This document shows, piece after piece, positions 10,370-63,393 of a DNA stretch of 64,000 bases (within the stretch, counting starts at the first letter, position 1; every line of letters begins with the position of its first letter). Both the position numbers and the translations under genes were made by a program. The stretch covers positions 160,279,052 through 160,343,051 of the forward strand of contig CM060977.1 in assembly GCA_030765065.1 (NCBI GenBank), in the 5' to 3' direction. The notes beneath the pieces are model-generated. The model had not been told where the DNA came from, ran no database searches, and was given only the letters and a program-made list of their open reading frames with translations. Source of the DNA: Deroplatys truncata. Its lineage: Eukaryota > Arthropoda > Insecta > Mantodea > Mantidae.

Positions 10370-10522
10370 TTTTTTAATTACCAGGTACATTATATGCATT
10401 AGGATTTTGTACCCAAGAATGTGTGTCCAATTATGTGTAGGCATTTGTGTTTAATTGAAAGAAATCAAGACGCCCCTTCAAGGACAGGGTAGTTTACTTT
10501 CTTAAATGAACCAGTGCTTTTT

Positions 10523-18178: not shown

Positions 18179-19024
18179 TCTGATGTGTTACACTCACATG
18201 ACTTTCTCTACTCTTGTACAAACTATTTTTACAAACGCTTATTCTCCATATCCTTCACGTTGATCGAGATGTTAATCTTATTGCTAATTTTCTTGTAGAT
18301 GCGAGGGGAATTGGTAGGCTTTAAGCGATAGTCAAATATTTTATGAGCTGGTTGCTATGTGGAGTATTCCATTCTCTTTGCATTACCAGGACAAAAAAAA
18401 TGAATAACGAATTTGAGAAAAAGTACAAGTATTGGAAAATTTAAGGGAATAACAAGCAATATCTCGAAAACGGTTCACTCAACAAAAGAAATGTATATGA
18501 CATAAATTGTGTATTTTAACGCCATCTACATTTTTCGTATAGTAAAATTTTGTCTATCTCTTATGGTTTACCAGTTATGCAAAAGTCCTTCACAATGAAG
18601 AATACTTTTGGAGACATTCCCAGAAAATTCGAGATATACATTTCATTTGTCATGAAAATATCTTAAACATATGATATTTTAATCAAAATCGTTAAGAGCC
18701 ATTTTTGAGAAAATTAAAATTTTCGAAAAATGTTCCATGTAAAGGGTAGTCTGGGGTAGGGGGATTTTCTTGAAAACCTTTGTGTCGCATCTCTGTAAGA
18801 TACTGAACCTAAATACCAAGTTTAGTGTTTATCCGACTGTTCGTTTCTGAGTTATGCTGTTCACAGACACACAGACACACACACACACACACACGGACAT
18901 GTTTCCAAAAATGCTTTTTTGGATTCAGGGGGTCTCAAAACATGTATTTCCTGTGAAATCTCGGTATCGAATTTTTGGGTGGAATGCAATACTTCTCCTA
19001 CTTGCTATACGTAGTAGAGAAAGT
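18179..19024 (-). repeat. R870 repeat, full length
   Basis: 846 bases from TCTGATGTGTTACACTCACA to GTAGTAGAGAAAGT, with AAAAA immediately on both sides. Contains a short (CA)n at 18866-18893. Confidence 0.88.
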
Positions 19025-19972
19025 AAAAATTGAAATGCTTCACTTGCTGAACTTTGTAAACAAATTTACATTACAAAATTTTAAGGACATACTTTTTCTC
19101 GCAAGTTCTGTTATGAACAACATTTTGATCCAACGAATGTTAACAAAATTACACCAGTGTTTCTTGTATTACTTTATTCCATAAATCTGTTTAATATAAG
19201 TCTGGGAATTTTATTGCCGCTTTCTGTTTGCACTGGGCAAGAGTATAATTCAAGGCGCATAAGAAGTATAAGGAGCAAGTACAGCTTGTGTAACTTATGC
19301 CTACTTATTTCTTCTTCTTTTTTAGCAAGTTTAATGCGCTTTAACACGGTAGGTCGTAACACACATTGGATGAACGAAATAGTTGAAATGATGCTCAAAT
19401 GAACCTGGATGCATAGTACTAAATGTTACCCCGCACCATTTTTTACTTATATTTTGTTTTACTTACACCTCAGGAAAATGCTTTCATGAAGTTTTTGATC
19501 ACATCTCCAAGGATACATATAGAAGAGAAAGAAGGAGAATGACTTTCGCATTTGATACATTAAAGAGGGCAAGTATTATTCTAGTTTAGGAACTGAATTG
19601 CGTTGAAAACAGTCGCTTCTTTATGAGGTTCAATAGGCGATTAAATTTATTCACACTTTCCCACACAGTAATGTTACTTTTTGAGTAATGTCTGTCGATA
19701 TACTTGGTAATTGCGCCAGTCAGGTTTAGCAACTGCACATAACAGCATAGGAATATAACTGTCTGAATGAATACTCTGAATCAATAATATTGCCATTACA
19801 GCGTCATCAACACTACTTCATTAAACGCTTTTGCTGCAGGTATAGGTTTATTTTGTATTTGATGGGGAAAGTATTTGAAAATTAATATGTTTTATATATA
19901 GTCACGAGAAGCAGTATTAAAAGTGATGCTAGCTCCTTGTAAAACGCATTATGTCATCATTTTTCTGACACA
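19025..19972. other. Unassigned intron sequence
   Basis: Short frames on both strands around 19160-19400 overlap each other and show no recognisable domain. Confidence 0.4.
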
Positions 19973-27862: not shown

Positions 27863-28695
27863 TCTGATGTGTTACACTCACATGACTTTCTCTACTCTTC
27901 TACAAACTATTTTTACAAACGCTTATTCTCCATATGCTTCATGTTAATCGAGATGTTAATCTTATTGCTCATTTTCTTGTAGATGCGAGGGGAATTGGTA
28001 GGCTTTAAGCGATAGTCAAATATTTTAAGAGCTGGTTGTTATGTGGAGTATTCCATTCTCTTTGCGTTACCAGGACCAAAACAAATGAATAACGAATTTC
28101 TATTTGAGAAAAAGTATAAGTATTGGAAAATTAAAGGGAATAACAAGCAATACCTCGAAAATGGTTCACTCAAAAAAAAAATGTATATGACATAAATTGT
28201 GCATTTTAACGCGATCTACATTTTTTTGTGTAGTAAAAGTTTGTCTATCTCTTATGGTTTACCAGTTATGCAAAAGTCGTTCACAATGAAGAATACTTTT
28301 GGAGACATTCCCAGAAAATTCGAGATATACATTTCATTTGTCATGAAAATATCTTAAACATATGATATTTTAATCAAAATCGTTAGAGCCATTTTTGAGA
28401 AAATTAAAATTTTCGAAAAATGTTCCATGCAAAGGGTAATCTGGGTTGGGGTTTTCTTGAAAACATTCGTGTCGCATCTCTGGAAGATACTGAACCTAAA
28501 TACCAAGTTTGGTGTTGATCCAACTGTTAGTTTCTGAGTTATGCTGTTCACAGACACACACACGGACATGTTTCCAAAAATGCTTTTTTTTTTATTTAGG
28601 GAGCCTCAAAACATATATTTCCGATGAAATCTCGGTATCGAATTTTTGGGTGGAATACAATACTTCCCCTACTTACTATACGTAGTAGAAAAAGT
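27863..28695 (-). repeat. R870 repeat nested in the Harbinger-type element
   Basis: Full-length copy from TCTGATGTGTTAC to GTAGTAGAAAAAGT, with AAAAA on both sides. It post-dates the Harbinger-type insertion. Confidence 0.87.
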
Positions 28696-28819
28696 AAAAA
28701 TGAATTGTGTGTCAAAACAGAAAAAACTGTCCTTATTGTGGCTGTTAGAAGATTGTGAAGATATAAAGACGAAATTGATTATGTAGTTGATCATTATTGT
28801 ATAGTAAGTCTGTTAGTGA

Positions 28820-30688: not shown

Positions 30689-31928
30689 CACTATGTGATC
30701 AAAAGTATCCGGACACCCCACAAACATACGTTTTTCATCTTAGGTGCATTGTGCTGCCACCAACTGCCTGGTACTCATTATCCGTGACCTCAGTAGTCAT
30801 TAGACATCGTGAAACAGCAGAATGGGACGCTCTGTGGAACTCACGGACTTCGAACGTGGTCAGGTGATTGGGTGTCACTTGTGTCAGAAGTCTGTACACG
30901 AGATTTCCACACTCCTAAACATCCCTAGGTCCACTGTTTCTGATGTGATAGTGAAGTGGAAACGTGAAGGGACATGTACAGCACAAAAGCGTACAGGCCG
31001 ACCTCGTCTGTTGACTAAAAGAGAACGCCCACATTTGAAGAGGGTCGTAAAGAGTAATAGGCACACATCTACCCAGATCATCACACAGGAATTTCAAACT
31101 GCATCAGGATCCACTCCAAATACTATGACAGTTAGGCGTGAGGTGAGAAATCTTAGATTCTATGGTCGAGCGGCGGCTCATAAGCCACACATCACGCACG
31201 AAAATGACAAACGACGCCTCGCTTGGTGTAAGCAGCGTCAACATTACACGATTGAACAGTGCAAAGCGTTGTGTGGAGCGACGGTACACAATAATGTGGC
31301 GATCCGATGGCAGGGTGTGGGTATGGCGAATGCAGTGAACGTCAGCTGCCAGTGTGTGTAGTGCCAACAGTGAAATTCGGAGGTGGTGGTGTTATGGTGT
31401 GGTCGTGTTTTTCCTGGAGGGAGCTTACACCCCTTGTTGTTTTGTGTGGCACGATTACAGCGCAGACCTACATTGATATTTTAAGCACCTTCTTGCTTCC
31501 CACTGTTGAAGAGCAATTCGGGAATGGCGATTGCATCTTTCAATACGATCGAGCACCTGGTAATACTGCACGGCCTGTGGCGGAGTGGTTACACGACAAT
31601 AACATCCCTATAGTGGACTGGTCTACACAGAGTCCTGACGTGAATCCTATAGAATACCTTTGGGATGTTTTGGAACGCCAACTTCGTGCCAGGCCTCACC
31701 GACCTACATCGATACCTCTCCTCAGTTCCGCACTCCGTTAAGAATGGGCTGCCATTCCCCAAGAAACCTTCCAGCACCTGATTGAGAGTATACCTGCGAG
31801 AGTGTACGCTGTCATCAAGGCTAAGAGTGGGCTAATACCATATTGACTTCTAGCATTACCGATGTAAGGCGTTACGAACTTGTACATCATTTTCAGCCAG
31901 GTGTCCGGATACTTTGGATCGCGTAGTG
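30689..31928 (+). mobile_element. Tc1-type element with inverted ends and TA duplication
   Basis: 1,240 bases. The ends share 'agtatccggacacc' and begin CACTAYGYGATC, about 29 bases with four mismatches. TA flanks both sides (30687-30688 and 31929-31930). The ends and length are typical of Tc1. It lies in Amt intron A-B. Confidence 0.92.
30822..31813 (+). pseudogene. Tc1 transposase (DD34E), frameshifted
   Basis: The start ATG at 30822 gives MGRSVELTDFERGQVIGCHL. Two N-terminal helix-turn-helix motifs follow (VHEISTLLNIPRSTVSDVIV around residues 23-42, then the GRPR hook and a second HTH). Near 31270-31360 the first catalytic Asp region is garbled by shifts (ALCGATVHNN where a 'WSDES' block is expected). 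The frame resumes with VPTVKFGGGGVMVWSCFS at 31360, FQYDRAPGNTARPVAEWL (second Asp) and QSPDVNPIEYLWDVLERQL (catalytic Glu). A premature stop lies at 31739. It is inactive but young enough that every block is still readable. Confidence 0.9.
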
Positions 31929-35435: not shown

Positions 35436-35877
35436 CTTGCTGTGTTATGAGGACTATAGGACAAAAGTGAGGAAATTATTGGAATATAGTTTTAAAGGAA
35501 CGACTGCTTAATCAGAGCTAAAGCTTAATAGTATTGTAATATACTGTTTCTAAGCTTCTTATTTCTGAATCGAGACAAAAGTTTTCCTCTTTATAGGAAG
35601 CTGGTACCTACTACTTGTGAGCTATAAGATTGTAGTGTACTTAACGTTTTACTAAATGGGAACATACCTCTCTTTTGCTCTCTTGTCTTCATATTTGAAA
35701 TGTATATCATAACGTAAATGTACTTGGTTAAATTATTGCGGCTTCTTGGATGTTCTCCAATGATACGAATATTTCCCTGTAACTCGTTTCAATATGTTTG
35801 TATCTTCATCCTCAAAGTTACAATGTTACACTAACTGCGATACATGCCCAAAAGTTTAACTAGCTCTTACCTTTTCT
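35436..35877. other. Unassigned spacer
   Basis: No feature recognised. Confidence 0.3.
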
Positions 35878-36835
35878 ACTTTCTCTACCACGTAGAGTAA
35901 GTAGGGGAAGTATTATATTCCACCCAAAAATTCGATACCGAGATTTCACCGGAAATATATGTTTTGAGACCCCTGAATCCAAAAAAAGCATTTTTGGAAA
36001 CATGTACGTGTGTGTGTGTGTGTGTGTGTCTGTGTCTGTGAACAGCATAACTCAGAAACGAACAGTCGAATAAACACCAAACTTGGTATTTAGGTTCAGT
36101 ACCTTCCAGAGATGCGACACGAAGGTTTTCAAGAAAATCCATCACCCCAGATTACCCTTGGCATGGAACATTTTTCGAAAATTTTAATTTTCTCAAAAAT
36201 GGCTCTTACGATTTTGAATAAAATATCATATATTTAAGATATTTTCATGGCAAATAAAATGTATATCTTGAATTTTCTGGGAACGTCTCCAAAAGCATTC
36301 TTCATTATGAACGACTTTTGCATAACTGATAAACCATAAGAGATAGACAAAATATTACTACAAAAATGTAGATCGCGTTAAAATACACAATTTATGTCAA
36401 ATACATTTTTGTTGTTGAGTGAACCATTTTCGAGATATTGCTTGTTATATCCTTAAATTTTTCAATACTTATTTTCTCAAATGGGAATTCGTTATTCATT
36501 TTTTTGTCTTGGATATGCAAAGAGTATTAATTTGTGGCAAAGGGAATGGTGCTGCACATAGCAACCAGCTATTAAGAGATATGTATGTGCTTAAAGGCTA
36601 CTGTATTTCTATGTTGCCGTTGCAAATACAAAACAAGGGGAACATAGTACGCCTTAAGCGATAGTCAACTATTTTTAGAACTGGTCGCTATGTGTAAAAT
36701 ATAATTCTCTTTGCATGTCAAAAGATCGTTTCTGCAAATGTTTATCTCGATTAATAAGAAATAGATGGAGAATAAGAGTTTGTAAAAATAGTTTGTACAA
36801 GAGTAGAGAAAGTCATGTGAGTGTAACACATCAGA
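35878..36835 (+). repeat. R870 repeat, full length, with an internal duplication
   Basis: ACTTTCTCTACCACG to TCAGA. At about 36540-36720 the 'gcaaccagct...gcgatagtcaa' segment occurs twice, which makes this copy about 90 bases longer than the rest. The flanks share CTTTTC on both sides, a likely target duplication. Confidence 0.85.
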
Positions 36836-39910: not shown

Positions 39911-40455
39911 AACCAAGCACCCTCTAGTGTCCACGGGGAATATTCTTTCCTATGAGCAAGCATCCCACAAGCAAGCAAGCCAAGAAGGTAATGTTGCTGC
40001 CAGCCTCTCCCTGTCCTACGTCACGTCGCTAAACCGTACCAACCTCGCGAGGGGATATGTAGGTTGGCATGAAGGTGAGTCTGTCGGAGTTCCATACCAA
40101 CGGAAGTGACGCATGAAGGGTGGTAGTGTTTGCGGAAAGGACCGGAAGTGAACAAACGGATCGTAGAAAATTATGATAAGAATGCGCAGATAAAAGGGGG
40201 CGTACTATGGGGAACACGCCCATTACTTATCGTGCATTTGCATGGTACACGCATTACCTTAAGTTCATTTCATTAGAAATGTCGTAATTCCGTTGCGAAA
40301 TGTATTTATATACTTATTGGGGAATTACGCAAGGTTATGATTTAATGGTTATTTGAGGTTATGTGGTAACTGACCAAAGTTTATTTCATCACAATATGAA
40401 GAGGCCCTCATTTATTCTGCAATTGTACCGCGCAGTCTTGCATTGGCTAATTTTT
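39911..40455. other. Unassigned sequence
   Basis: A 60-codon frame at 39927-40109 has no recognisable domain. Confidence 0.3.
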
Positions 40456-41296
40456 ACTTTCTCTACTACGTATAGTAAGTAGGGGAAGTATTTATTCCAC
40501 CCAGAATTTCGATACCGAGATTTCACCGGAAATACATGTTTTGAGGCCCCCTGAATCCAAAAAAAGCATTTTTGGAAACATGTCCGAGTGTGTGTCTGTC
40601 TGTGAACAGCACAACTCAGAAACGAACAGTCGGATAAACAACAAACTTGGTATTTTGGTTCAGTATCTTCCAGAGATGCGACACGAAGGTTTTCAAGAAA
40701 ATCCCCCCACCCCAGATTACCCTGTACATGAAACATATTTCGAAAATTTTAATTTTCTCAAATATGGCTCTAACGATTTTGATAAAAATATCATATATTT
40801 AAGATACTTTTATGACAAATAAAATGTATATCTCGAGTTTTCTGGGAATGTCTCCAAAAGTATTCTTCATTGTGAACGACTTTTGCATAACTTGTAAACA
40901 ATAAGAGATAGACAAAATTTTACTACACAAAAATTGTAGATCGCGTTAAAATACACAATTTATGTCATATACATTTTTTGTTGAGTGAACCATTTTCGAG
41001 ATATTGCTTGTTATTCCCTTAAATTTTGCAATACTTATACTTTTCCTCAAATAGGAATTCGTTATCCATTTTTTTTGTCCTGGCAACGCAAAGAGAATGG
41101 AATACTCCACATAGAAACCAGCTGTTAAAATATTTGACTCGCTTAAAGCCTACCAATTCCCCTTGCACCTACAAGAAAATTAGCAATACGATTAACATCT
41201 CGGTATCTCGATTAACATGAAGCATATGGAGAATAAGCGTTTGTAAAAATAGTTTGTACAAGAGTAGAGAAAGTCATATGAGTGTAACACATCAGA
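40456..41296 (+). repeat. R870 repeat, full length
   Basis: ACTTTCTCTACTACGTATAG to ACATCAGA, with TTTTTA-like flanks on both sides. Confidence 0.88.
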
Positions 41297-41717: not shown

Positions 41718-41723
41718 TACCAC
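41718..41723. repeat. Left target-site duplication TACCAC
   Basis: Identical to 54488-54493 at the other end of the element. A 6-base duplication is the rule for Polinton/Maverick integration. Confidence 0.85.
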
Positions 41724-41733
41724 AGTAGTATTA

Positions 41734-41882
41734 GTCCCGGATGAGCCAATTGTTTTAACGATAATCCTGCCGCTAGGGGCGCTCGTGTCGCTAGTGTCGC
41801 TGCGTGCGACGGCGGCGGCGGTAAGTTTGAAAAGCGCCCTGAGCGGTAGGATTATCGTTATTGCAATTGGTTCATCCGGGAC
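41734..41882. other. Hairpin-forming segment at the left tip
   Basis: Bases 41734-41783 (GTCCCGGATGAGCCAATTG...) pair with 41833-41882 (complement GTCCCGGATGAACCAATTG...) over about 50 bases with few mismatches, around a GC-rich loop holding 'tgtcgct' twice and (GGC)n. The same structure is at 54329-54477. It may be a replication-origin structure or a small captured foldback element. Confidence 0.75.
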
Positions 41883-42027
41883 GAGTTGAAAGAATTGAGG
41901 ATTAGGGTAAGGTGAAGGAAGAAGAGGAAGTGACGTGGAGTGTTTTGATTGGTTCGTTAATTTGGGTGGAAGATGAAGGAAGGAAGATGGAAGAGTATGG
42001 AGGTCGCGTGATGGAGAGGAGCTGGGT

Positions 42028-43424
42028 GGCGAGGTGTTGTCTGTGCGGAGGTCGGGACTGAAAGAGGGAAAATATGGGGGAGCGAGGGATAAAAAGTGTA
42101 ACAGAAAGTGACGTGTGAAGTTGTGATTGGTGGGAATAAGAAGTGATGTTATTGGTGGAAAGGAGCAAATGAAAGTTGTTGATTGGTAAGAATAAGAGAG
42201 ATTATGATTGGTGGAAAGAAAAAGGAGTGGGGTATGTTGGAGGTGATGGGAAAGGTAAGTTTTGCTAGCAACAAGATTTGCAAAAGCCTGTCGTGAACTG
42301 ATCAGCAATTTTTTTTGAACGTTGGATGGTAGTTTTCTTGAGTGGATAGAGAGATGGGGCGATATGAGATGCGGTGGCGAAAATGGGAACTAAACGAGGT
42401 GGTTGAGACAAGAGGTTTAAGGACGAGGAAATTTGGAGGTTAGTGGTGAACATGGCGGTCGCAAGAGGTGGGGGTAAGGAGATGCGGTGGTGAGAATGGG
42501 AACTAAAAGAAGATGGCGGTAGCAAGAGCTTAGAAGAGTAGATTTTGAGGTTAAAATAGTGGGAACTAAAAATGGCGGAAGGTCTGCGACAAGGAGATGC
42601 GGTGGGAACTAAACAAGATGGCGGTCGCAAGAGGAGGGTAAGGAGATTTGAGGTTACAGTACCAAAACACGAAAGGATATATTCCTACGCCAAGCAGGTC
42701 CGAAAAATAATTATGCGTGTGGTACTTACCTCGTACCGGTGTGGATGCGTCACCAAAAGCGCGGCACGCGACGCGAAAAAATAACAGCAAACTGTTTTTG
42801 AAAATGCTTAACCAGCTTTAAGATCAACCAACATCACTACGCACTGATATACCTAGGTTTTTAAAGCGGTACAGACACCCTTTGCAGAGGCGTAATTTAA
42901 CTATACCTAAAACCTGGTACTGGACCATCGTGATGGTCGCTAGCGTACGTAGGAGCAGGGTTCTCAAGCCGGTCGAAAGCGGTCAAAAACGTGTACGACG
43001 TAGGTGTTCACCGCAGCTGCTGTCGAGTCAACCGTCGAGGTGTGAATGAACGAGATCTGTTCTTGCCGGCAATCTGGTTGGGAGATGAGAGGCGCGGTGG
43101 TAAAAATGGGAACTAAATAAGATGGCGGAGGCATGAAGTTGAGGTTAAGGAGCGGTGAGGTGTTGTCTGTGCGGAGGTTGGGGCTGAAAGAGGGGGAAAG
43201 ATGGCGAACGAGGGATAAAAGTATAACAGAAAGTGACGTGTGAAGTTGTGATTGGTGGGAATAAGAAGTGATGTTATTGGTGGAAAGGAACAAATGAAAG
43301 TTGTTGATTGGTGAGAATAAGAGAGATTATGATTGCTGGAAAGAAAAAAGGTGTGGGAGTGGGGTATGTTGGAGGTGATGGAAAAGGTAAGTTTTGCTAC
43401 CAACAACATTTGCAAAAGCCTATT
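42028..43424. repeat. Direct duplication within the left inverted repeat (two 275-base copies)
   Basis: 42028-42290 and 43150-43424 are near-identical direct copies holding 'gaggtgttgtctgtgcggagg', four ATTGG boxes (CCAAT on the other strand) and 'ggaggtgatgg.aaaggtaagtttt'. The right arm has the mirror pair at 53041-52790 and 54160-53930. Confidence 0.75.
42330..42650. promoter_or_regulatory. Array of YY1-like ATGGCGG motifs in the left inverted repeat
   Basis: Repeats of 'gagatgcggtgg.gaaaatgggaacta' alternate with AAGATGGCGG, AACATGGCGG and AAAATGGCGG at about 42450, 42511, 42570 and 42618; another lies at 43123. AAGATGGCGGC is the known binding consensus of the YY1 (Drosophila Pho) zinc-finger factor. 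Binding is inferred from sequence only. Confidence 0.45.
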
Positions 43425-43764
43425 CAGAACTCATCAGCAATTTTAAATAACTAGTGTTTCGGGGTTTTCTCTGGTTGGTAGACGAATGCAAAGCTGTTTC
43501 TGCCATACTTATATTATCCGGCTTTTCCTTTTTTTTCTTTTTTCTTTTTGTTTTTTGGTTTTTTTTAAAATAACTAGTTTTTGGGGTTTTCTGCGGATGG
43601 TAAACGAATGCAAGCTCTTTCTGCTTTTTCATACGTTTTCCCTGGTTGGTAGGCGTTTTCTGTAGTGGTTGACGAAGCCGTTTCTAATTTTCGAGGTTTT
43701 CTCAGGTTTTTTAGCGGTTGTCCCTGCCCGGTAGGCAAATGATGAAGTTTTACCTTGTCGGCGC

Positions 43765-45554
43765 ACGGATACTAGGCACATACTCGCACACACACACACA
43801 GACAGACACACAGACAGACACACACACGGTCATGTTTCCCAAAATGCTTTTTTTTGGATTCAGGAGGTCTCAAAACGTGTATTTCCGGTGAAATCTCGGT
43901 ATCGAATTTTTGGGTGGAATGCAATACTTCCCCCTGCTTACCATACGTAGTAGAGAAAGTAAAAAAGTATAAGTATTGGAAAATTTAAGGAAATAACAAG
44001 CAATATCTCGAAAACGGTTAACTCGACAAAAGAAATGTATATGGCATAAGTTGTGTATTTTAACGCGATCTACATTTTTTGTGTAGTAAAATTTTGTCTA
44101 TCTCTTATGGTTTACCAGTTATGCAAAAGGCGTTCACAATGAAGAATACTTTTGGAGACATTCCCAGAAAATTTGAGATATACATTTTATTTCTCATGAC
44201 ATTATCTTAAACATATGATATTTTCATCAAAATCGTTATAGCCATTTTTGAGAAAATTAAAAAAAGTGTACTATCTTGTTTTCATGGGCTTTCCAAATCG
44301 GTAAGCGTTAGAATACTCTTAGAGCTTTTTTACAGGTTTTTCGCGGTTATCCCTGTCCGGTAGGCAGATGATAAAGTTTTTCTATAATGTCGTCGTTTTG
44401 GCTTGTGGCGCACGGATACTAGGCACATACTCGCACACACACACAGACAGACACAGAAACAGACACACACACGGACATGTTTCCAAAAATGCTTTTTTTT
44501 TGGATTCAGGAGGTCTCAAAACGTGTATTTCCGGTGAAATCTCGGTATCAAATTTTTGGGTGGAATGCAATACTTCACCTACTTACTATACGTAGTAGAG
44601 AAAGTAAAAAAAAGTATAAGTATTGGAAAATTTAAGGAAATAACAAGCAATATCTCGAAAACGGTTCACTCGACAAAAGAAATGTATATGGCATAAGTTG
44701 TGTATTTTAACGCGATTTACATTTTTTGTGTAGTACAATTTTGTCTATCTCATGACATTATCTTAAACATATGATATTTTCATCAAAATCGTTATAGCCA
44801 TTTTTGAGAAAATTAAAAAAGGTGTACTATCTTGTTTTCATGGGCTTTCCAGATCGGTAGGCGTTAGAATACTCTTAGAGCTTTTTTTCAGGTTTTTTCG
44901 CGATTATCCCTGTCCGGTAGGCAGATGATAAAGTTTTTCTATAATGTCGTCGTTTTGGCTTGTGGCGCACGGATACTAGGCACATACTCGCACACACACA
45001 CACACACAGACAGACACAGAAACATACACACACACGGACATGTTTCCAAAAATGCTTTTTTTTGGATTCTGGAGGTCTCAAAACGTGTATTTCCCGTGAA
45101 ATCTCGGTATCGAATTTTTGGGTGGAATGCAATACTTCACCTACTTACTATACGTAGTAGAGAAAGTAAAAAAAAGTATAAGTATTGGAATATTTAAGGA
45201 AATAACAAGCAATATCTCGAAAACGGTTCACTCGACAAAAGAAATGTATATGGCATAAGTTGTGTATTTTAACGCGATCTACATTTTTTGTGTAGTAAAA
45301 TTTTGTCTATCTCATGACATTATCTTAAACATATGATATTTTCATCAAAATCGTTATAGCCATTTTTGAGAAAATTAAAAAAAGTGTACTATCTTGTTTT
45401 CATGGGCTTTCCAGATCGGTAGGCGTTAGAATACTCTTAGAGCTTTTTTTTCAGGTTTTTTCGCGGTTATCCCTATCCGGTAGGCAGATGATAAAGTTTT
45501 TCTATAATGTCGTCGTTTTGGCTTGTGGCGCACGGATACTAGGCACATACGCGC

Positions 45555-45588
<34 letters not shown>

Positions 45589-45600
45589 TAAAATAGTAGC
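43765..45600 (-). repeat. Four tandem units carrying R870 pieces, left arm
   Basis: Each unit has 'cgcacggatactaggcaca', a (CA)n run, 'cacggtcatg/cacggacatg', the R870 left-end block ('ttccggtgaaatctcggtatc') and a shortened internal R870 block ending 'gagaaaattaaaaaaagtg'. The fourth unit is partial. They seem to have grown by duplication of one R870 insertion. Confidence 0.75.
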
Positions 45601-45887
45601 GTATAAAAAAATTTAACAAACCGTAGATTTTCAAGAAAATTCCCACACCGCAAACTACCCGTTTAGCGGAAGAAAGTTAGTTATTTTTATTGTCTTAAAA
45701 ATGGCTCTAACCCCTTTTGATTACGGTACGGTATGTTTAAGATATCTGCATGACAAATAAAATGTATAACTTCAATTTTCTGGGAATAGCTGTGAAGTAG
45801 TCTCATTGTGAATGTCTTTTGTACAACTGTTAAACCGTAGGAAACGAAGCCTTACTGTACAAGAACGTTAAAGCACACAATTTATGT

Positions 45888-45890
<3 letters not shown>
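45600..45890 (+). repeat. Diverged R870 internal segment
   Basis: Holds 'ttcaagaaaattcccacacc', 'aaaaatggctctaac', 'aaataaaatgtataact' and 'gcacacaatttatg', in the family's order. It runs into the (ATT)n that opens the 690-base tandem units. Confidence 0.6.
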
Positions 45891-45921
<31 letters not shown>

Positions 45922-46572
45922 TTTGTGGCGTTGTCTATTTACAAAGTTTCCATGTTGATTTTAATGTTTAAAAGCTTTAGACCTTTCTCACTAAAACTCG
46001 TCATTCTTTTAACTTTTCTTTTTTCATTTTCATACAAAGAGAACGGAATTTCACAAGTGAAACAGCACTGTAATAACGATACCAACAAACTATTATTATT
46101 CACCCACTGAAACACATAAAAACAATAAGTAATAATCACAGACCCAGTTTGTGGGTATTTAAATGAAACATCATGCACAATATAAGCCAATTATGTAATA
46201 AGTTGAAATGTGCAAATCTATAGATGTATTTCTGGCGAAAATCCCGGTATGGAATTTTTGAGTGCAATGCAATTTCTCCTGTATCTGCTATGTACGTCAG
46301 ACTCAACTTTCGCGCCATTCTCCGAATATCTGAGAATATTCTTAATATGAGACAAGCATTTTACCTTAAGCAAGTAGTTTTAATCTTACTTTTATGAAAA
46401 TCAGAGTTTCCTCTATATCGTTTATTTGTGACAACAACGCTAAGTTTCGAGCTAGCTATACTCACTTTCTTGCAACTATATACGTTTAAACTAATATTAA
46501 CAAATTTCTCGTAATCCCAGAATTTATTAATCATAGCTGTAATATTTTTCACAACCGCATGTAATAATATGT

Positions 46573-46609
<37 letters not shown>

Positions 46610-47264
46610 TACTTTGTGGCGTTGTCTATTTACAAAGTTTCCATGTTGATTTTAATGTTTAAAAGCTTTAGACCTTTCTCACTAAAACTCGTCATTCTTT
46701 TAACTTTTCTTTTTTCATTTTCATACAAAGAGAACGGAATTTCACAAGTGAAACAGCACTGTAATAACGATACCAACAAACTAATTATTATTCACCCACT
46801 GAAACACATAAAAACAATAAGTAATAATCACAGACCCAGTTTGTGGGTATTTAAATGAAACATCATGCACAATATAAGCCAATTATGTAATAAGTTGAAA
46901 TGTGCAAATCTATAGATGTATTTCTGGCGAAAATCCCGGTATGGAATTTTTGAGTGCAATGCAATTTCTCCTGTATCTGCTATGTACGTCAGACTCAACT
47001 TTCGCGCCATTCTCCGAATATCTGAGAATATTCTTAATATGAGACAAGCATTTTACCTTAAGCAAGTAGTTTTAATCTTACTTTTATGAAAATCAGAGTT
47101 TCCTCTATATCGTTTATTTGTGACAACAACGCTAAGTTTCGAGCTAGCTATACTCACTTTCTTGCAACTATATACGTTTAAACTAATATTAACAAATTTC
47201 TCGTAATCCCAGAATTTATTAATCATAGCTGTAATATTTTTCACAACCGCATGTAATAATATGT

Positions 47265-47298
<34 letters not shown>

Positions 47299-47950
47299 TA
47301 CTTTGTGGCGTTGTCTATTTACAAAGTTTCCATGTTGATTTTAATGTTTAAAAGCTTTAGACCTTTCTCACTAAAACTCGTCATTCTTTTAACTTTTCTT
47401 TTTTCATTTTCATACAAAGAGAACGGAATTTCACAAGTGAAACAGCACTGTAATAACGATACCAACAAACTAATTATTATTCACCCACTGAAACACATAA
47501 AAACAATAAGTAATAATCACAGACCCAGTTTGTGGGTATTTAAATGAAACATCATGCACAATATAAGCCAATTATGTAATAAGTTGAAATGTGCAAATCT
47601 ATAGATGTATTTCTGGCGAAAATCTCGGTATGGAATTTTTGAGTGCAATGCAATTTCTCCTGTATCTGCTATGTACGTCAGACTCAACTTTCGCGCCATT
47701 CTCCGAATATCTGAGAATATTCTTAATATGAGACAAGCATTTTACCTTAAGCAAGTAGTTTTAATCTTACTTTTATGAAAATCAGAGTTTCCTCTATATC
47801 GTTTATTTGTGACAACAACGCTAAGTTTCGAGCTAGCTATACTCACTTTCTTGCAACTATATACGTTTAAACTAATATTAACAAATTTCTCGTAATCCCA
47901 GAATTTATTAATCATAGCTGTAATATTTTTCACAACCGCATGTAATAATA
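45886..47950. repeat. Three tandem copies of a 690-base unit
   Basis: Units begin with (ATT)n at about 45886, 46571 and 47263 and end at 47950 (periods 685 and 692). They differ by only a few bases plus the length of the ATT tract. Identical minus-strand frames of 60 and 63 codons repeat in each copy and have no recognisable domain. A stretch at about 46211-46295 ('ttctggcgaaaatcccggtatgg') is a diverged R870 end, so the unit itself contains repeat sequence. Confidence 0.88.
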
Positions 47951-47962
47951 TTGATTTAGGGG

Positions 47963-48735
47963 GCTTTCTCTACCACGTAAAATAGTAGGTAGAGGAGGTA
48001 TGCATTGCATCCAAATATTCAATATTGAGATTTCACCGGAAAAAACTAAATACTTGTTTTGAGGTCCCCTGAATAAAAAACATTTTTAGAAAATTCTGTG
48101 TGTATGTGTCAGAGCAGCATAACTCAAAAATAAAAAGTCGGATAAATACTAAAACTTGGTATTTAGGTTGAGTACCTTCCAAAGTTACGACACAGAGATT
48201 TTCAAGAAAGTCCCTCCACCCCAAACCACCCTTTACATGAACTATTTTCCGAAATGTTTTATTTTCTAAAACTGTCTCTGACGATTTTAATTACAACACC
48301 ATATATTAAAGACATTTATATGAAAAATAAAATGTATATCTTGAATTTTGTGGAAATAGCCTGTGAAGTCCTCTTGATTCGGAAGAAATTTTCTACGATC
48401 TTGTATAACTGCTAAGGTTTGAGGAAACACACACAATTTATTTGAAATAACTTTTTTGCGACGTCAGCCATTTCCGAGATATCTGTTGTAAAATGCTTCG
48501 AATTGTACAATGCTTAGCCATTCTTTTTTAAAGGCATGTCGCTTTTCAGTTCTTGCCCGCCATGTTGATGGAAAGAATTTAGAATTTTTTTAAGGCCAGT
48601 GTATAACGGATGTGTGCAATGCAACCATTTCCCGAAAAGTTTATCCGGATTAAAATTAAGTTGATATGAAAATAAACTTTCGTACTCACCTATAAGAGAT
48701 AGAGGGTAGAGGTCATACGAACGTAACACTTGAGA
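47963..48735 (+). repeat. R870 repeat, old copy inside the Polinton-type core
   Basis: From 'ctttctctaccacgta' to about 'aacacttgaga'. Strongly diverged and without the (TG)n tract. Confidence 0.7.
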
Positions 48736-49295
48736 ATTTTTATTCAACAGTTGGTGTTACTCCTTAGAAAGGAAGTATCTGCTGCTTTCTATTTAATTCA
48801 CACATTCTACATAACACGTATGCACTGCACAACACAAAAAACACTACACACGGTACTCGTAGTTTTAAATATTGCACTGAGGCGGTGTGAAAACTTTAAA
48901 ACGCTGCTCGCTCGTCATTTCCCACGCACGGCACTGCTGATGATAAGTGTAAATCGAGCGTGAGAAAAGGATGTTTGTCAGCGTTTATGCAGCCTTACTG
49001 CCGACGGTGGCGGTCGCGCAGTGGCGGATCGTGACAGGATGACCGCGTTTTTTTACAACTTGACAATTTTGTAGCGAAATGAGGCATTTACTCTACGCGC
49101 ATGTTGAAAACAGCAGTTGCGATAAGCGAGCTTATAAAAACCCGGCGCCAAGAGCAAACGCCCGTAGTGAGAAACGGGGACGATAGCGGATTTTTCTACA
49201 AAATCGTTCTATTTGACGAAAAATAGTTTAAAATAAAAACAAAATAGCAGCAACACTTTGCAGGGAAAGAGCGATCGGTGCATTCGGACGATAAG
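48736..49295 (+). promoter_or_regulatory. Upstream region of the polymerase-like gene, with TATA box
   Basis: More GC-rich than its surroundings from about 48880. A TATA box (CTTATAAAAACCC) lies at about 49131-49143, some 155 bases before the ATG, with a possible start site near 49160-49170 by the usual spacing of about 30 bases. It is single copy in the window. No start-site data exist here, so the assignment is by motif. Confidence 0.5.
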
Positions 49296-49931
49296 ATGGA
49301 GCTGCAATCCGGGGGAAGTCGCGATGGCACCTTGCAACCTACGTTCGAAATTATAGGACACAAGCAGAGAAGGCTGCCAAAGCTTTTTTCCGGCTTTACA
49401 GAGTCTCAAAGTACCGTAAACCCGGTCCCCAGAGATGTCAACCCTGAGCAATGGGTATCGCATTTGTTTAACGATATTCTAAACTTTGCGAAAGAGAACC
49501 TGTTAGAAAACGAACCGGGGTATTTAGGCATATCCATAACAGACGAAAAGGAGACGTCCAAAGCCTTCAACATGAGCGTTAGGCGCGTAGACCAATTGAA
49601 TGCGGACGTCATTGTTGGAAGCATCGAAAAAGTAATGCAAAGTAACCAACAATTCTTGCTAAGCGGGCCTCTTCACGTGACGTTTGTGTGGACCAAGGAG
49701 GTGTCGGGTTCGTGCCACCAACCTTGCGATGCCTGTAGGGGCAATAAAGGCATTGTCGAAATAGCCAACAAAGACAACCTGTGTTTAGCAAGAGCCATTG
49801 TTGTAGTCAAAGCCAAAGTGGATCGCGACGTCAACTATAGAACGATGACGCGCTCCGACTATCTGCAAAAATCGAAGGCCGTAGCCTTGTGCGCGAGCAT
49901 CGGTCAAGGCCACGATTTATACGAATTTTAA
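49296..49931 (+). CDS. Polinton/Maverick-type DNA polymerase B N-terminal region, stand-alone ORF
   Basis: 211 codons from the ATG at 49296 (context AAGATGG, better than any upstream non-ATG start) to TAA at 49931. Residues 1-40 are basic and polar. Residues about 45-110 have an 'FNDILNFAKENL' helix and MSVRRVDQLNADVIVGSIEK, then VMQSNQQFLLSGPLHVTFVW. Cysteines follow in SCHQPCDACRGNKG. Residues about 158-176 read ANKDNLCLARAIVVVKAKVD. From memory of the family, 'NKDNLCLARAI' and the 'QSN..F.L...L.V' stretch mark the region in front of the exonuclease and polymerase domains of protein-primed PolB in Polintons and related viruses. A full PolB exceeds 1,000 residues; here the frame ends where the next conserved block should begin, and its last codons fall in the downstream tandem array. 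The frame is intact, so it may be a retained fragment or a repurposed small protein. It is the only plausible gene of the element. A different viral or mobile-element protein with the same domain is possible. Confidence 0.62.
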   Translation: MELQSGGSRDGTLQPTFEIIGHKQRRLPKLFSGFTESQSTVNPVPRDVNPEQWVSHLFNDILNFAKENLLENEPGYLGISITDEKETSKAFNMSVRRVDQLNADVIVGSIEKVMQSNQQFLLSGPLHVTFVWTKEVSGSCHQPCDACRGNKGIVEIANKDNLCLARAIVVVKAKVDRDVNYRTMTRSDYLQKSKAVALCASIGQGHDLYEF

Positions 49932-50565
49932 GCAGTTTGAAAGAAGTGAAGTAAACGCGATTTTACACTCACTAGGAGCTAGAAAATCCAATTTCTTGAC
50001 TTTTTAAAAACTGAGTATTCTTGGTATATATAGGCTTATTATGACGTGAAACAACCATTTATATGATTTTTCGAAGTTTGAAAGAAGTGAAGTAAACGCG
50101 ATTTAACACTCACTAGGGGCTAGAAAATCTATTTTCTTGACTTTTTAAAAACTCAGTATTTTTTGGTATATATAGGCTTATTATGACGTGAAACAACCAT
50201 TTATATGATTTTTTCGAAGTTTGAAAGAAGTGAAGTAAACGCGATTTAACACTCACTAGGGGCTAGAAAATCGATTTTCTTTACTTGTTAAAAATTCAAT
50301 ATTCTTGGTATATAGAGGCTTATTATGAGGTGATACATCCATTTATATGAATTTTAAGCAGTTTGAAAGAAGTGAAGTAAACGCGATTTTACACTCACTA
50401 GGAGCTAGAAAATCCAATTTCTTGACTTTTTAAAAACTCAGTATTCTTGGTATATATAGGCTTATTATGACGTGAAACAACCATTTATATGATTTTTAAG
50501 CAGTTTGAAAGAAGTGAAGTAAACGCAATTTTACACTCACTAGGGGTAGAAAATCGTTTGCACTG
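49925..50565 (+). repeat. 142-base tandem array, 4.5 copies
   Basis: Units start with GTTTGAAAGAAGTGAAGTAA at 49935, 50076, 50219, 50361 and 50503 (spacings 141-143). The fifth unit is cut at about 50562. Each holds 'acactcactagg', 'tttttaaaaactcagtatt' and 'tatataggcttattatgacgtgaaacaacc'. The array begins within the last codons of the polymerase-like ORF: its 'gaattttaagcagtttgaaag' recurs at 50349. Confidence 0.92.
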
Positions 50566-53500
50566 CACACTTTTGTGTTAAAATATATATACATTTTCAA
50601 TTTTGTCATGGTGTAGATTTTTTTTGTTAACTTTTTTATACGCTACTATTATAGTGTGTGTGTGTGAGTATGTGCCTAGTATCCGTGCGCCACAAGCCAA
50701 AACGACGACATCATAGAAAAACTTTATCATCTGCCTACCGGACAGGGATAACCGCGAAAAAACCTGAAAAAAAGCTCTAAGAGTATTCTAACGCCTACCG
50801 ATCTGGAAAGCCCATGAAAACAAGATAGTACACTTTTTTTAATTTTCTAAAAAATGGCTATAACGATTTTGATGAAAATATCATATGTTTAAGATAATGT
50901 CATGAGATAGACAAAATTTTACTACACAAAAAATGTAGATCGCGTTAAAATACACAACTTATGCCATATACATTTCTTTTGTCGAGTGAACCGTTTTCGA
51001 GATATTGCTTGTTATTTCCTTAAATTTTCCAATACTTATACTTTTTTTTACTTTCTCTACTACGTATAGTAAGTAGGTGAAGTATTGCATTCCACCCAAA
51101 AATTCGATACCTAGATTTCACCGGAAATACACGTTTTGAGACCTCCTGAATCCAAAAAAAAGCATTTTTGGAAACATGTCCGTGTGTGTGTCTGTTTCTG
51201 TGTCTGTCTGTGTGTGTGTGTGCGAGTATGTGCCTAGTATCCGTGCGCCACAAGCCAAAACGACGACATTATAGAAAAACTTTATCATCTGCCTACCGGA
51301 CAGGGATAACCGCGAAAAACCTGTAAAAAAGCTCTAAGAGTATTCTAACGCTTACCGATCTGGAAAGCCCATGAAAACAAGATAGTACACTTTTTTTAAT
51401 TTTCTCAAAAATAGCTATAACGATTTTGATGAAAATATCATATGTTTAAGATAATGTCATGAGATAGACAAAATTTTACTACACAAAAAATGTAGATCGC
51501 GTTAAAATACACAACTTACGCCATATACATTTCTTTTGTTGAGTGAGCTGTTTTCGAGATATTGCTTGTTATTTCCTCAAATGTTCCAAATACTTATACT
51601 TTTTTACTTTCTCTACTACGTATAGTAAGTAGGGGAAGTATTGCATTCCACCCAAAAATTCGATACCGAGATTTCACCGGAAATACACGTTTTGAGACCT
51701 CCTGAATCCAAAAAAAGCATTTTTGGAAACATGTCCGTGTGTGTGTCTGTCTGTCTGTGTGTGTATGTGTGTGTGCGAGTATGTGCCTAGTATCCGTGCG
51801 CCACAAGCCAAAACGACGACATTATAGAAAAACTTTATCATCTGCCTACAGGACAGGGATAACCGCGAAAAACCTGTAAAAAAGCTCTAAGAGTATTCTA
51901 ACGCTTACCGATTTGGAAAGCCCATGAAAACAAGATAGTACACTTTTTTTAATTTTCTCAAAAATGGCTTTAACGATTTTGATGAAAATATCATATGTTT
52001 AAGATAATGTCATGAGAAATAAAATGTATATCTCAAATTTTCTGGGAATGTCTCCAAAAGTATTCTTCATTGTGAACGCCTTTTGCATAACTGGTAAACC
52101 ATAAGAGATAGACAAAATTTTACTACACAAAAAATGTAGATCGCGTTAAAATACACAACTTATGCCATATACATTTCTTTTGTCGAGTGAACCGTTTTCG
52201 AGATATTGCTTGTTATTTCCTTAAATTTTCCAATACTTATACTTTTTTACTTTCTCTACTACGTATAGTAAGTAGGGGGAAGTATTGCATTCCACCCAAA
52301 AATTCGATACCGAGATTTCACCGGAAATACACGTTTTGAGACCTCCTGAATCCAAAAAAAAGCATTTTTGGAAACATGTCCGTGTGTGTGTCTGTCTGTG
52401 TGTCTGTCTGTGTGTGTGTGTGTGAGTATGTGACTAGTATCCGTGCGCCGACAAGGTAAAACTTCATCATTTGCCTACCGGGCAGGGACAACCGCTAAAA
52501 AACCTGAGAAAACCTCGAAAATTAGAAACGGCTTCGTCAACCACTACAGAAAACGCCTACCAACCAGGGAAAACCTATGAAAAAGCAGAAAGAGCTTGCA
52601 TTCGTTTACCATCCGCAGAAAACCCCAAAAACTAGTTATTTTTTAAAAAAAACGAAAAAACAAAAAGAGAAAGGAAAAAAAAGGGAAAAGACGGATAATA
52701 TAAGTATGGCAGAAACAGCTTTGCATTCGTCTACCAACCAGAGAAAACCCCGAAACACTAGTTATTTAAAATTGCTGATGAGTTCTGAATAGGCTTTTGG
52801 AAATGTTGGTAGCATAACTTACCTTTTCCATCACCTCCAACATACCCCACTCCCACACCTTTATTTCTTTCCACCAATCATAATCTCTCTTATTCTCACC
52901 AATCAACAACTTTCATTTGTTCCTTTCCACCAATAACATCACTTCTTATTCCCACCAATCACAACTTCACACGTCACTTTCTGTTATACTTTTATCCCTC
53001 GTTCGCCATCTTTCCCCCTCTTTCAGCCCCAACCTCCGCACAGACAACACCTCACCGCTCCTTAACCTCAACTTCATGCCTCCGCCATCTTATTTAGTTC
53101 CCATTTTTACCACCGCGCCTCTCATCTCCCAACCAGATTGCCGGCAAGAACAGATCTCGTTCATTCACACCTCGACGGTTGACTCGACAGCAGCTACGGT
53201 GAACACCTACGTCGTACACGTTTTTGACCGCTTTCGACCGGCTTGAGAACCCTGCTCCTACGTACGCTAGCGACCATCACGATGGTCCAGTACCAGGTTT
53301 TTGGTATAGTTAAATTACGCCTCTGCAAAGGGTGTCTGTACCGCTTTAAAAACCTAGGTATATCAGTGCGTAGTGATGTTGGTTGATCTTAAAGCTGGTT
53401 AAGCATTTTCAAAAACAGTTTGCTTTTATTTTTTCGCGTCGCGTGCCGCGCTTTAGGTGACGCATCCACACCGGTACCAGGTAAGTACCACACGCATAAT

Positions 53501-53574
53501 TATTTTTCGGACCTGCTTGGCGTAGGAATATATCCTTTCGTGTTTTGGTACTGTAACCTCAAATCTCCTTACCC

Positions 53575-53765
53575 TCCTCTTGCGACCGCCATCTTGTTTA
53601 GTTCCCACCGCATCTCCTTGTCGCAGACCCTCCGCCATTTTTAGTTCCCACTATTTTAACCTGAAAATCTACTCTTCTAAGCTCTTGCTACCGCCATCTT
53701 CTTTTAGTTCCCATTCTCACCACCGCATCTCCTTACCCCCACCTCTTGCGACCGCCATGTTCACC
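53575..53765. promoter_or_regulatory. YY1-like motif array, right arm
   Basis: Complement of the left-arm array: CCGCCATCTTG, CCGCCATTTTTAG, CCGCCATCTTC and CCGCCATGTTC at about 53585, 53631, 53692 and 53753, separated by 'tagttcccat' units. Confidence 0.45.
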
Positions 53766-54328
53766 ACTAACCTCCAAATTTCCTCGTCCTTAAACCTCTT
53801 GTCTCAACCACCTTGTTTAGTTCCCATTTTCGCCACCGCATCTCATATCGCCCCATCTCTCTATCCACTCAAGAAAACTACCATCCAACGTTCAAAAAAA
53901 AATTGCTGATCAGTTCACGACAGGCTTTTGCAAATCTTGTTGCTAGCAAAACTTACCTTTCCCATCACCTCCAACATACCCCACTCCTTTTTCTTTCCAC
54001 CAATCATAATCTCTCTTATTCTTACCAATCAACAACTTTCATTTGCTCCTTTCCACCAATAACATCACTTCTTATTCCCACCAATCACAACTTCACACGT
54101 CACTTTCTGTTACACTTTTTATCCCTCGCTCCCCCATATTTTCCCTCTTTCAGTCCCGACCTCCGCACAGACAACACCTCGCCACCCAGCTCCTCTCCAT
54201 CACGCGACCTCCATACTCTTCCATCTTCCTTCCTTCATCTTCCACCCAAATTAACGAACCAATCAAAACACTCCACGTCACTTCCTCTTCTTCCTTCACC
54301 TTACCCTAATCCTCAATTCTTTCAACTC

Positions 54329-54477
54329 GTCCCGGATGAACCAATTGCAATAACGATAATCCTACCGCTCAGGGCGCTTTTCAAACTTACCGCCGCCGCC
54401 GTCGCACGCAGCGACACTAGCGACACGAGCGCCCCTAGCGGCAGGATTATCGTTAAAACAATTGGCTCATCCGGGAC
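54329..54477. other. Hairpin-forming segment at the right tip
   Basis: Mirror of 41734-41882. Confidence 0.75.
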
Positions 54478-54487
54478 TAATACTACT

Positions 54488-54493
54488 TACCAC
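54488..54493. repeat. Right target-site duplication TACCAC
   Basis: Matches 41718-41723 exactly. Confidence 0.85.
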
Positions 54494-60188: not shown

Positions 60189-60829
60189 TAGTAGTAGTGT
60201 TAGTAGTAGTGTTAGTAGTAGTAGTAGTGGTAGTAGTAGTAGTAGTAGTAGAAGTAGTAGTAGTGGTAGTAGTAGTAGTGGTAGTAGTGGTAGTAGTAGT
60301 AGTGGTAGTAGTAGTAGTGGTAGTAGTAGAAGTAGTAGTGGTAGTAGTGGTAGTAGTAGTAGTAGTAGAAGTAGTAGTAGTAGTGGTAGTAGTAGTAGTA
60401 GTAGTGGTAGTAGTAGTAGTAGTGGTAGTAGTAGTAGTAGTAGTGGTAGTAGTAGTAGAAGTAGTAGTAGTAGCAGAAGTAGTAGTAGTAGTGGTAGTAG
60501 TGGTAGTAGTAGTAGTAGTAGTAGTGGTAGTAGTAGTAGTAGTAGTAGTGGTAGTAGTAGTGGTAGTAGTGGTAGAAGTAGTAGTAGTAGAAGTAGTAGT
60601 AGTAGTGGTAGTAGTAGTAGTGGTAGTAGTAGTAGTAGTAGTAGTGGTAGTAGTAGTAGTGGTAGTAGTAGTAGAAGTAGTAGTAGTAGAAGTAGTAGTA
60701 GTAGAAGTAGTAGTAGTAGTAGAAGTAGTAGTAGTAGTAGAAGTAGTAGTAGTAGTAGTAGTGGTAGTAGTAGTGGTAGTAGTGGTAGTAGTAGTAGAAG
60801 TAGTAGTAGTAGAAGTAGTAGTAGTAGTG

Positions 60830-60860
<31 letters not shown>

Positions 60861-60871
60861 TAGTAGTAGTG

Positions 60872-60902
<31 letters not shown>

Positions 60903-61078
60903 TAGTAGTAGAAGTAGTAGTAGTAGAAGTAGTAGTAGAAGTAGTAGTAGTAGAAGTAGTAGTAGTAGTAGTGGTAGTAGTAGTAGTAGTAGTGGTAGTA
61001 GTAGTAGTGGTAGTACTAGCAGTAGTAGTGGTAGTAGTGGTAGTAATAGTAGTAGTGGTAGTAGTAGTAGTAGTAGTC

Positions 61079-61116
<38 letters not shown>

Positions 61117-61200
61117 CGTAGTAGTAGTAGCAGTAACAGAAGCAGCAGTAGTAGTATTAAAAGTAGTAGTAGTAGTGGTGGTGGTGGTGGTGGTGGTGGT
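60184..61200. repeat. Kilobase-long (AGT)n/(ACT)n trinucleotide repeat
   Basis: About 1,015 bases of AGT units with regular GGT and AGA interruptions, ending in (GGT)n at 61175-61200. Frames of 345-491 codons on both strands encode only poly-Ser, poly-Val or poly-Thr and are artefacts. One of them is fused in frame to the R1-like fragment by chance. Confidence 0.95.
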
Positions 61201-63393
61201 GAAAGAAACCAACATTACATCTTTTTGTGGATGAAGCTAAAGTCGTAAATTCACAAACAAAAGACTTTTCTAACGACATCAAGTAGTAGTGTCCATTTAT
61301 AGATCAACGCAAATGGCTTTCTAATAGTGTTCTGCGTAACTTGGCGTTAGGGTACTGCGTACGGTACATGTTGTCTCCTCTTGTAAAATTCCTAAAATAA
61401 TCGCAATTGACTTCGTCGGCAAGGGCAATCACATTATGTCGAAATGGGAAATTTAGCTTCAGAAATGTTTTCGGCTGTATCTGTTTAGAGGACAATGGAT
61501 TAGGTGGCTTATGAAACTGATACCATGCATTACTAACAAAGTATAGAGGAATATTGTAACACTCCACGCGGGTGGTTACCCCGCGGTAGGTGATTACACT
61601 TTTGGTAGCTGAGGCAGGGGATGCGTCGGTACTGGGGTGGTAGGCAGGCCAGGGTGGCGTTCTAGGATAGGGGGTATTTAATAATACACAGGGGATGCAT
61701 TGACCCAACAGATTGTATTATTGCTTTTAGTGTAAGTACATTCGGGCCCGTAACTGGGTCACTCAGTTTGGGGTGAAGCCCCGGCAAATTAGCAGAACTT
61801 AGAGGAGACTCATTCTTACCTGAGTAACTGGTGACGATGTTACAGCGGCGATTCCCGCAATGTCTCAGACAAGGGTCTCGAGTCTGATTCAACAACTGAC
61901 AACTGATCTGACGACTCTCCTGATAACTGATCGCAATTGAACAACTGACCTCGCTCGAGTCAAAACCCCGTAGTATAAATATATAGCTAAGAGCTGACAC
62001 GGCGTTCTTTAGCGTGGTCGTGTTTAGGTAACCTGATTTCGACATTTTACGAATGGTTATGTCGTATGATGTAAACCTCGGCGCTCGACCTGGTCCGCTA
62101 CTTCGGTCCCAGGTTCGCCAAATTCCGACCCGGAATTTAAAATTCAAAAGGAGGGCAAACATCTTAGGGGGTACTTAAACTGTCCACTTAGACGAGGGTT
62201 GGTAGAAAAAGAAAAAAAAATAATGGTTTGAGCCTTATACAATTGAAATGCTCGGGGGTACTCTGCTGTCCAAGACTCGGATACCAGGGACAAATTTTTT
62301 TTAAGTGTTGGTGAGTACGTTAGGGGTGGGTTCGACTGCGCACCGCAGCCTGCTGCAAATCTTTGTCTCTTCTCTGCTGATTGCTTACTTCCGTGCCCGG
62401 AGGTGAACTTTGCCTTGAATATTTGAGTGTTCTGTACAGAACTGCTGATTGACTCTGCATACGTAGCTATTTTCTTGGTAACGTAGGATTTATTGCCGCC
62501 CATGCTGCATTTCTTTGGTCAAGCAGTGGCGTTCTCTCAGAGCGCACCAATTCTTCGTGGTCTGGCGCGACTTCCGTGGTGAGTTACTGGCGTTCGTACT
62601 CTGGTGGGCACTATTCGACCTGGGTCTTTTTGTTGGTTGATTCTCTTCGGGCTGTCTCTTGGTGCGCAGCAACAGGGTTGTTTTTCGAAGATGGAGTTTA
62701 GTTCGGATAGGTGGGAAAGATTATGCGTTTTAAATTCTTACGGGATGAGACTAAACACAGCAGAGAAAAGGTAACTTTAGAAAGTGAATGGGTACCCCTG
62801 CCGATTCCTTGTCTCTCCAAATTTTGAAAAAGAGGGGAAAAAAACACGGAACGCCAGCGAAGCCGCGGGTTAAAGCTAATATAGGGTAAAGACGGTTTGG
62901 ATTTCTTAGTGTGGAAGCGGACGTGATACGAGTTAGATACCGTGCCAAAGAAGCTTTAGCTATTTTGTGCGCCATATTTGAAATATTTAGGACTCCATGG
63001 GTTTGCTAGTAATGTTTTAAAGCTTACACAGTCACCATTGTAATGCAACTCATGGGATGATTACTGCGTGTTGCATGGTAATACTCTCGGCAAGATTGTG
63101 CACGTTTTGGGACGGGATGGTGTTCACGCGGCGCGTATACATGCTGAAAATCTTAAATGCACAACTTTCTACATGCCGCTGGCATTGCGCGACATCTTTG
63201 GTGATATAATAATCATCAGTGTCTCTAACACAGTAAGGTAGGTATCGCAAAATTAATCACAGAAGTTTTGTTCCACTAGGAAGCTATTTGGTCCATTTTC
63301 ACTTATATATGCAGGATTCATGATCTAAACTGTAAATAAAAGATGAATTGGCCTGCATATATTCAAGTGAATCAAGAAGAGAAAGTAGATAAA
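61201..63393. other. Unassigned 2.2-kb stretch, partly GC-richer
   Basis: Overlapping minus-strand frames at 61304-61708, 61662-62162, 62144-62503 and 62490-62672 (60-166 codons) show no domain I recognise. A 'tggcgaacctgggacc' (minus strand, about 62104-62119) looks a little like a retroelement primer-binding site, but no paired LTR was found. Could be an unknown element. Confidence 0.3.

Follow-up and report, generated by a model that had tools for sequence, protein, structure and literature searches.

We examined a window of 64,000 nucleotides from the genome of Deroplatys truncata (assembly GCA_030765065.1, contig CM060977.1, positions 160,279,052 to 160,343,051) and find at 41724-54487 a derivative of a Polinton/Maverick transposon that is 12,764 bp long. 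We think it fairly probable that this is a non-autonomous Polinton in which two left ends are joined in head-to-head orientation, generated through the replication and mobilisation machinery of relatives in the same genome. We rate this palindromic double-left architecture as a new form of a known element type; no double-left or palindromic non-autonomous Polinton was found among the matches listed from the open-licence literature.

Assignment to the Polintons/Mavericks follows from a 6-bp target-site duplication and inverted AGT-repeat termini. The element runs from AGTAGT to ACTACT, with AGTAGTATTAG at 41724 and its complement at 54487, and the vertebrate Mavericks carry the same (AGT)2//(ACT)2 end motif (PMC8097293). 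A first-pass annotation of this DNA had proposed Polinton-type ends flanked on both sides by TACCAC, inverted repeats of about 3.9 kb making up some 61% of the element and a core gene resembling a polymerase N-terminus, and each of these features was recovered (Table 1). The arms measure 3.84 kb and are 98.05% identical over approximately 3,850 aligned columns (52 mismatches and 23 gap columns). Inverted repeats make up 60.3% of the element when inverted matches down to 150 bp and 90% identity are counted. A chance origin of the inverted repeat is rejected, as it spans 3.8 kb and is bounded by an exact 6-bp duplication, and as eight of eight further copies also have exact 6-bp duplications. 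An assembly artefact caused by a folded read is unlikely in view of the dozens of sites at which the arms differ, the unlike outer flanks of each copy and the exact duplications.

Table 1. Features of the Polinton derivative in the window (positions are those of the 64,000-nucleotide stretch)
Feature	Position	Strand	Basis or remark
Target-site duplication TACCAC, left	41718..41723	.	
Left arm, left-end sequence	41724..45564	+	inner part with tandem ~560-640-bp units containing a dispersed host repeat
Left-arm tip palindrome, one long hairpin just inside AGTAGTATTA	41734..41882	+	folding versus shuffles
Three ~690-bp tandem units, 99.3-99.6% alike, left-end interior	45883..47951	+	also present in piece L055 of a PolB-bearing relative
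PolB start, first 207 codons of the family's PolB	49296..49915	+	comparison with host PolB loci
Fusion junction	49915..49916	.	collinearity with 29/29 fetched PolB loci stops here
142-bp tandem array, ~4.5 units, inner part of second left end	49916..50555	+	as in arms of copies E10 and E20
Right arm, second left end, inverted	50654..54487	-	
Right-arm tip palindrome	54329..54477	-	
Target-site duplication TACCAC, right	54488..54493	.	exact match to left TACCAC

The host genome (4.29 Gb, 818 contigs) was searched with the 300-bp tip of the window element. All 40 scored places were 99-100% identical, out of 1,976 first-look candidates, a total that, like the 951 and 3,092 given below, counts unscored candidates and not copies. 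Eighteen of these places formed nine convergent pairs within 18 kb, the window element among them, while the other 22 had no partner among the matches listed. The eight further pairs were fetched as halves (E10 from L009/L010, E12 from L011/L012, E14 from L013/L014, E16 from L015/L016, E18 from L017/L018, E20 from L019/L020, E22 from L021/L022 and E24 from L023/L024) and range from 13,188 to 17,570 bp. Exact 6-bp duplications, differing between copies, flank all eight (nine of nine with the window copy), and (AGT)2//(ACT)2 ends are present in all nine. Arms reach over 7 kb in some of these copies as against 3.8 kb in the window. By the same thresholds the inverted-repeat share is 77.1% for E24 and 86.6-100% for the other seven, so that the window copy has the lowest share of the nine compared; tandem units within the arms inflate these percentages, which overstate a simple two-arm palindrome. 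The view of the window element as a unique oddity was rejected, since 40/40 scored tips match at 99-100% and a second type of tip, described below, matches at 40/40 places with 100% identity.

The halves of the nine copies align mostly to left-end references, and right-side gene references, including those from the integrase side, gave no selected match above 300 bp in the window element or the eight other copies. PolB coding sequence is present in four of the nine, and the point at which the outgoing side stops is particular to each: PolB codon 207 in the window copy, 148 in E12, approximately 413 in E22 and 68 in E24, with E16 stopping 12 bp before the PolB ATG. The point joined to also differs between copies. 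A single fusion inherited by all copies was therefore rejected. In E12 the arms, compared over 5.9 kb, are alike right up to the junction (31 mismatches, 84 gap columns), which is what a fold-back switch would leave.

The core open reading frame (ORF) of the window element (49296-49931) encodes 211 amino acids (aa), of which the last four residues derive from the 142-bp array. Its match with all 29 fetched PolB loci ends at 49915, so that this ORF is the truncated N-terminus of a family B polymerase of about 1,280 aa. The first-pass annotation had seen here a non-autonomous derivative with a gene fragment, and this description holds, a complete family B polymerase gene being absent from the window element with only codons 1-207 kept. 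Searched by itself, the 211-aa ORF yielded no Pfam domain, no notable match in the PDB, no homologous protein at E 0.001 among 80 candidates, and no match among phage records or viral and genome contigs searched by protein and by motif. A single-sequence fold (mean pLDDT 40) was not used. By eye, a TATAAAA motif lies approximately 160 bp upstream of the fragment, and the partners at the fusion junction have at most 1-2 nt in common. The window copy is a mosaic in which the outer arms and the 142-bp array are of one left-end type and the interior up to PolB codon 207 is of another. A dispersed host repeat of about 600 bp is embedded and tandemly amplified within the Polinton arms; beside CA/GT runs it occurs in both orientations at around a dozen further sites in the window, including 10518-11152, 18418-19029, 28109-28700, 35871-36472 and 40451-41044.

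Gene-bearing relatives are found in the same genome. The window ORF was 97-100% identical to the host sequence at all 150 scored places (of 3,092 first-look candidates), and by a count made by eye 65 of the 150 hold open frames no shorter than 1,200 aa, of which one has an internal stop. One long frame, which agrees with the window ORF over its first 207 residues, yields in a 707-aa stretch the family B polymerase domain PF03175 (E 1.2e-20). A protein search with PolB returned seven relatives; one of them, 28% identical, comes from Photinus pyralis and is annotated as DNA-directed DNA polymerase. Two PolB-bearing copies, C2 and C16, were read in pieces and share the left tip and outer left arm of the window element at 94-97%. 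To the right of PolB, C2 encodes an integrase with rve (E 2.8e-15) and Chromo (E 5.6e-7) domains, so that the partner with PolB, integrase and the same tip for which the annotation had suggested a search does exist. C2 also carries a protease-like ORF matching the cysteine protease S273R (E 5.1e-6) and a capsid-like ORF of 437 aa that shares 75% identity with a metagenome protein and 35-37% with two F54H12.2-like proteins, a name that we take to mark Polinton capsids; Pfam returned no domain for this 437-aa ORF. C16 is 97.8% identical to C2 across 3.9 kb to the right of PolB, and then terminates inside the gene region in an inverted copy of the tip, with 63 bp aligned between L055 and L056. 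This right-end tip copy measures 63-68 bp, and C16 is flanked, by eye, by an 11-12-bp direct repeat and not by a 6-bp duplication; these features were noted at L055:3590-3640 and L056:3952-4006.

These relatives bear on whether the element belongs to another superfamily. Long, inverted and internally repetitive arms such as those of the window element recall the Foldback/Galileo elements of Drosophila (PMC3573991), and a Foldback-type transposon could have captured a PolB fragment by chance. Galileo, however, belongs to the P-element superfamily (PMC3573991), whereas the same-tip relatives described here carry PolB and an rve integrase; shared tips, that of C2 included, start the PolB- and integrase-bearing copies, and the 6-bp duplications and (AGT)2 ends fit Polintons. 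We regard a Foldback origin as highly improbable. The window element resembles Polintons/Mavericks in these ends and duplications and in having same-genome relatives with PolB, integrase, capsid-like and protease-like genes, but differs from the vertebrate Mavericks in lacking any complete gene, in arms of 3.8 kb (over 7 kb elsewhere) and in that both ends are left ends.

The tip of C2 may itself be of a recently active type. A 300-bp C2 tip was 100% identical at all 40 scored places (of 951 candidates) on 15 contigs, an indication that this Polinton family expanded very recently. Four convergent pairs occur among these 40 places, and six 80-bp probes were used to sample one pair, C12. In inverted orientation, three probes align to the left end of C2 and a fourth to left arms of other copies; the fifth aligns in both orientations to arms of other double-left copies, and the sixth over 21 bp only. 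On these probes C12 seems to be a double-left element with a different type of tip.

For the formation of double-left copies we favour a switch of template by fold-back, or a joining of ends, in the course of strand-displacing replication; the enzymes of the relatives would then mobilise the product in trans. A strand-displacing, protein-primed PolB of a relative would copy inwards from a left tip, switch to the complementary strand or onto a different left end, and copy back outwards to a tip, leaving a double-left molecule. With two usable tips, such a molecule could be copied by the PolB of the relatives and inserted by their integrase with a 6-bp duplication. Copying and insertion by these enzymes fit the 6-bp duplications and the near-identical tips. 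Displaced single strands could then close into panhandles through their arms, which would keep the arms alike. Strand displacement has been reported for a Polinton-type PolB of Entamoeba (PMC3511435).

The likeness of the two arms within a copy is consistent with this scheme. Across the outer 1.65 kb, arms diverge by 0.52% within copies and by 1.50% between copies, and none of 10,000 shuffles gave a value as low. In a tree the arms are sisters in seven of the nine copies, with no resolution for the window copy and E24, and the 18 sampled arms form a clade apart from the left ends of the two PolB-bearing copies (100/99), a grouping that the choice of nearest tips favours. Copy-back birth, panhandle repair and gene conversion would equally give this likeness.

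Adenovirus makes defective DNA in which the left end is duplicated, and these symmetric recombinants resemble the copies described here both in protein-primed strand-displacement replication and in the inverted duplication of one end. They differ in that the window-type copies are integrated into the host genome as transposed copies. The packaging domain of adenovirus is situated close to the left end (PMC5033970). A bolder reading, which we hold to be possible but doubtful, is that the copies are the fossil remains, in the host genome, of defective-interfering genomes of an animal Polinton virus: self-complementary double-left DNAs that gene-keeping relatives would have regenerated time and again, copied and possibly packaged, and that were integrated as parasites of a parasite.

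The tips provide a further comparison. Bases 11-159 of the tip fold as a single hairpin (z -12.4, with none of 200 shuffles as good), and this sub-terminal hairpin formed in all six tips folded, including two from PolB-bearing relatives, in which one side of the stem differs from the other tips and yet the differences still pair. The hairpin termini of parvoviruses and bidnaviruses are similar in offering a long imperfect palindrome, but in the window element the palindrome is sub-terminal, ten terminal bases lie outside it and the relatives encode PolB and integrase.

A fusion of two left ends must be weighed against simpler histories. The first-pass annotation had supposed that the inverted repeats expanded, and this is seemingly not so, the arms being two left ends head to head and the relatives lacking, where sampled, a right arm to compare with them. 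A mere lengthening of ordinary terminal repeats is an improbable source of the arms, because the two PolB-bearing relatives show no long left-end copy on the right where sampled, both halves are left ends and the junctions are copy-specific. For C2, no left-end similarity was detected in L058 and L059 (7.7 kb together), and none of eight 70-bp probes placed up to 21 kb from the left tip gave a left-end match. An alternative is that the copies are internal-deletion derivatives of a Polinton whose terminal inverted repeats had been very long from the outset, the gene block alone having been lost. Maverick terminal repeats do vary, from 46 to 1,447 bp in vertebrates with a mean of 402 (PMC8097293). 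This history is nevertheless unlikely, given the two relatives without a long right arm where sampled and the presence in the cores of sequence from the left end and the PolB N-terminus, joined at points that differ from copy to copy.

Several observations weigh against a double-left origin by template switching. The right end of C2 was not reached or not recognised, so that the right end of a complete relative is unread, which also leaves room for an internal deletion; the probes could have missed a terminal repeat shorter than about 0.75 kb lying between them, or one beyond 21 kb; and the right arm was sampled in just two PolB-bearing relatives. Selection of tip pairs with a left-specific query favours double-left copies, and the finding that both ends are left is thus partly by construction, although it does not force the duplications to be exact, nor what the cores contain, nor the differences between junctions. 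Only 12 of the 18 arms have their sister as the closest arm, most sister-arm forks have moderate support, and gene conversion in the chromosome could likewise keep arms alike. Finally, the window copy and E24 each combine two different left-end types, and their unlike inner halves need the joining or recombination of two ends and not a simple fold-back. Such mosaic interiors, and a junction with almost no common bases, resemble end joining and may suggest instead an origin in the host chromosome, where recombination or repair involving two inverted insertions that lie close together would give double-left molecules, which afterwards transpose like any ordinary element. We consider a chromosomal origin a little less likely again than an internal deletion, as nine of nine copies are clean insertions with 6-bp duplications and hence moved after fusion, and fusion in a replicating extrachromosomal pool would be the shorter route.

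If the double-left reading is true, molecules with insertion marks and differing junctions are a footprint of strand-displacing, template-switching replication, making such replication testable; their junctions would record the points of polymerase switching or end joining, and their arms would record end-to-end repair. Polinton replication in animals has been inferred from genes, and particles were unobserved as of 2021 according to PMC8097293. The copies described here are non-autonomous Polintons with up to their entire length in inverted repeats, a share that the tandem units in the arms overstate.

Elsewhere in the window, an Rfam search found no family at gathering scores. ORFs that by eye resemble fragments of mariner/Tc1 transposases lie at 7746-8267 and 30813-31361, and a degenerate TAG/GTG triplet array of about 1 kb, in which several frames are open, occupies 60189-61201.

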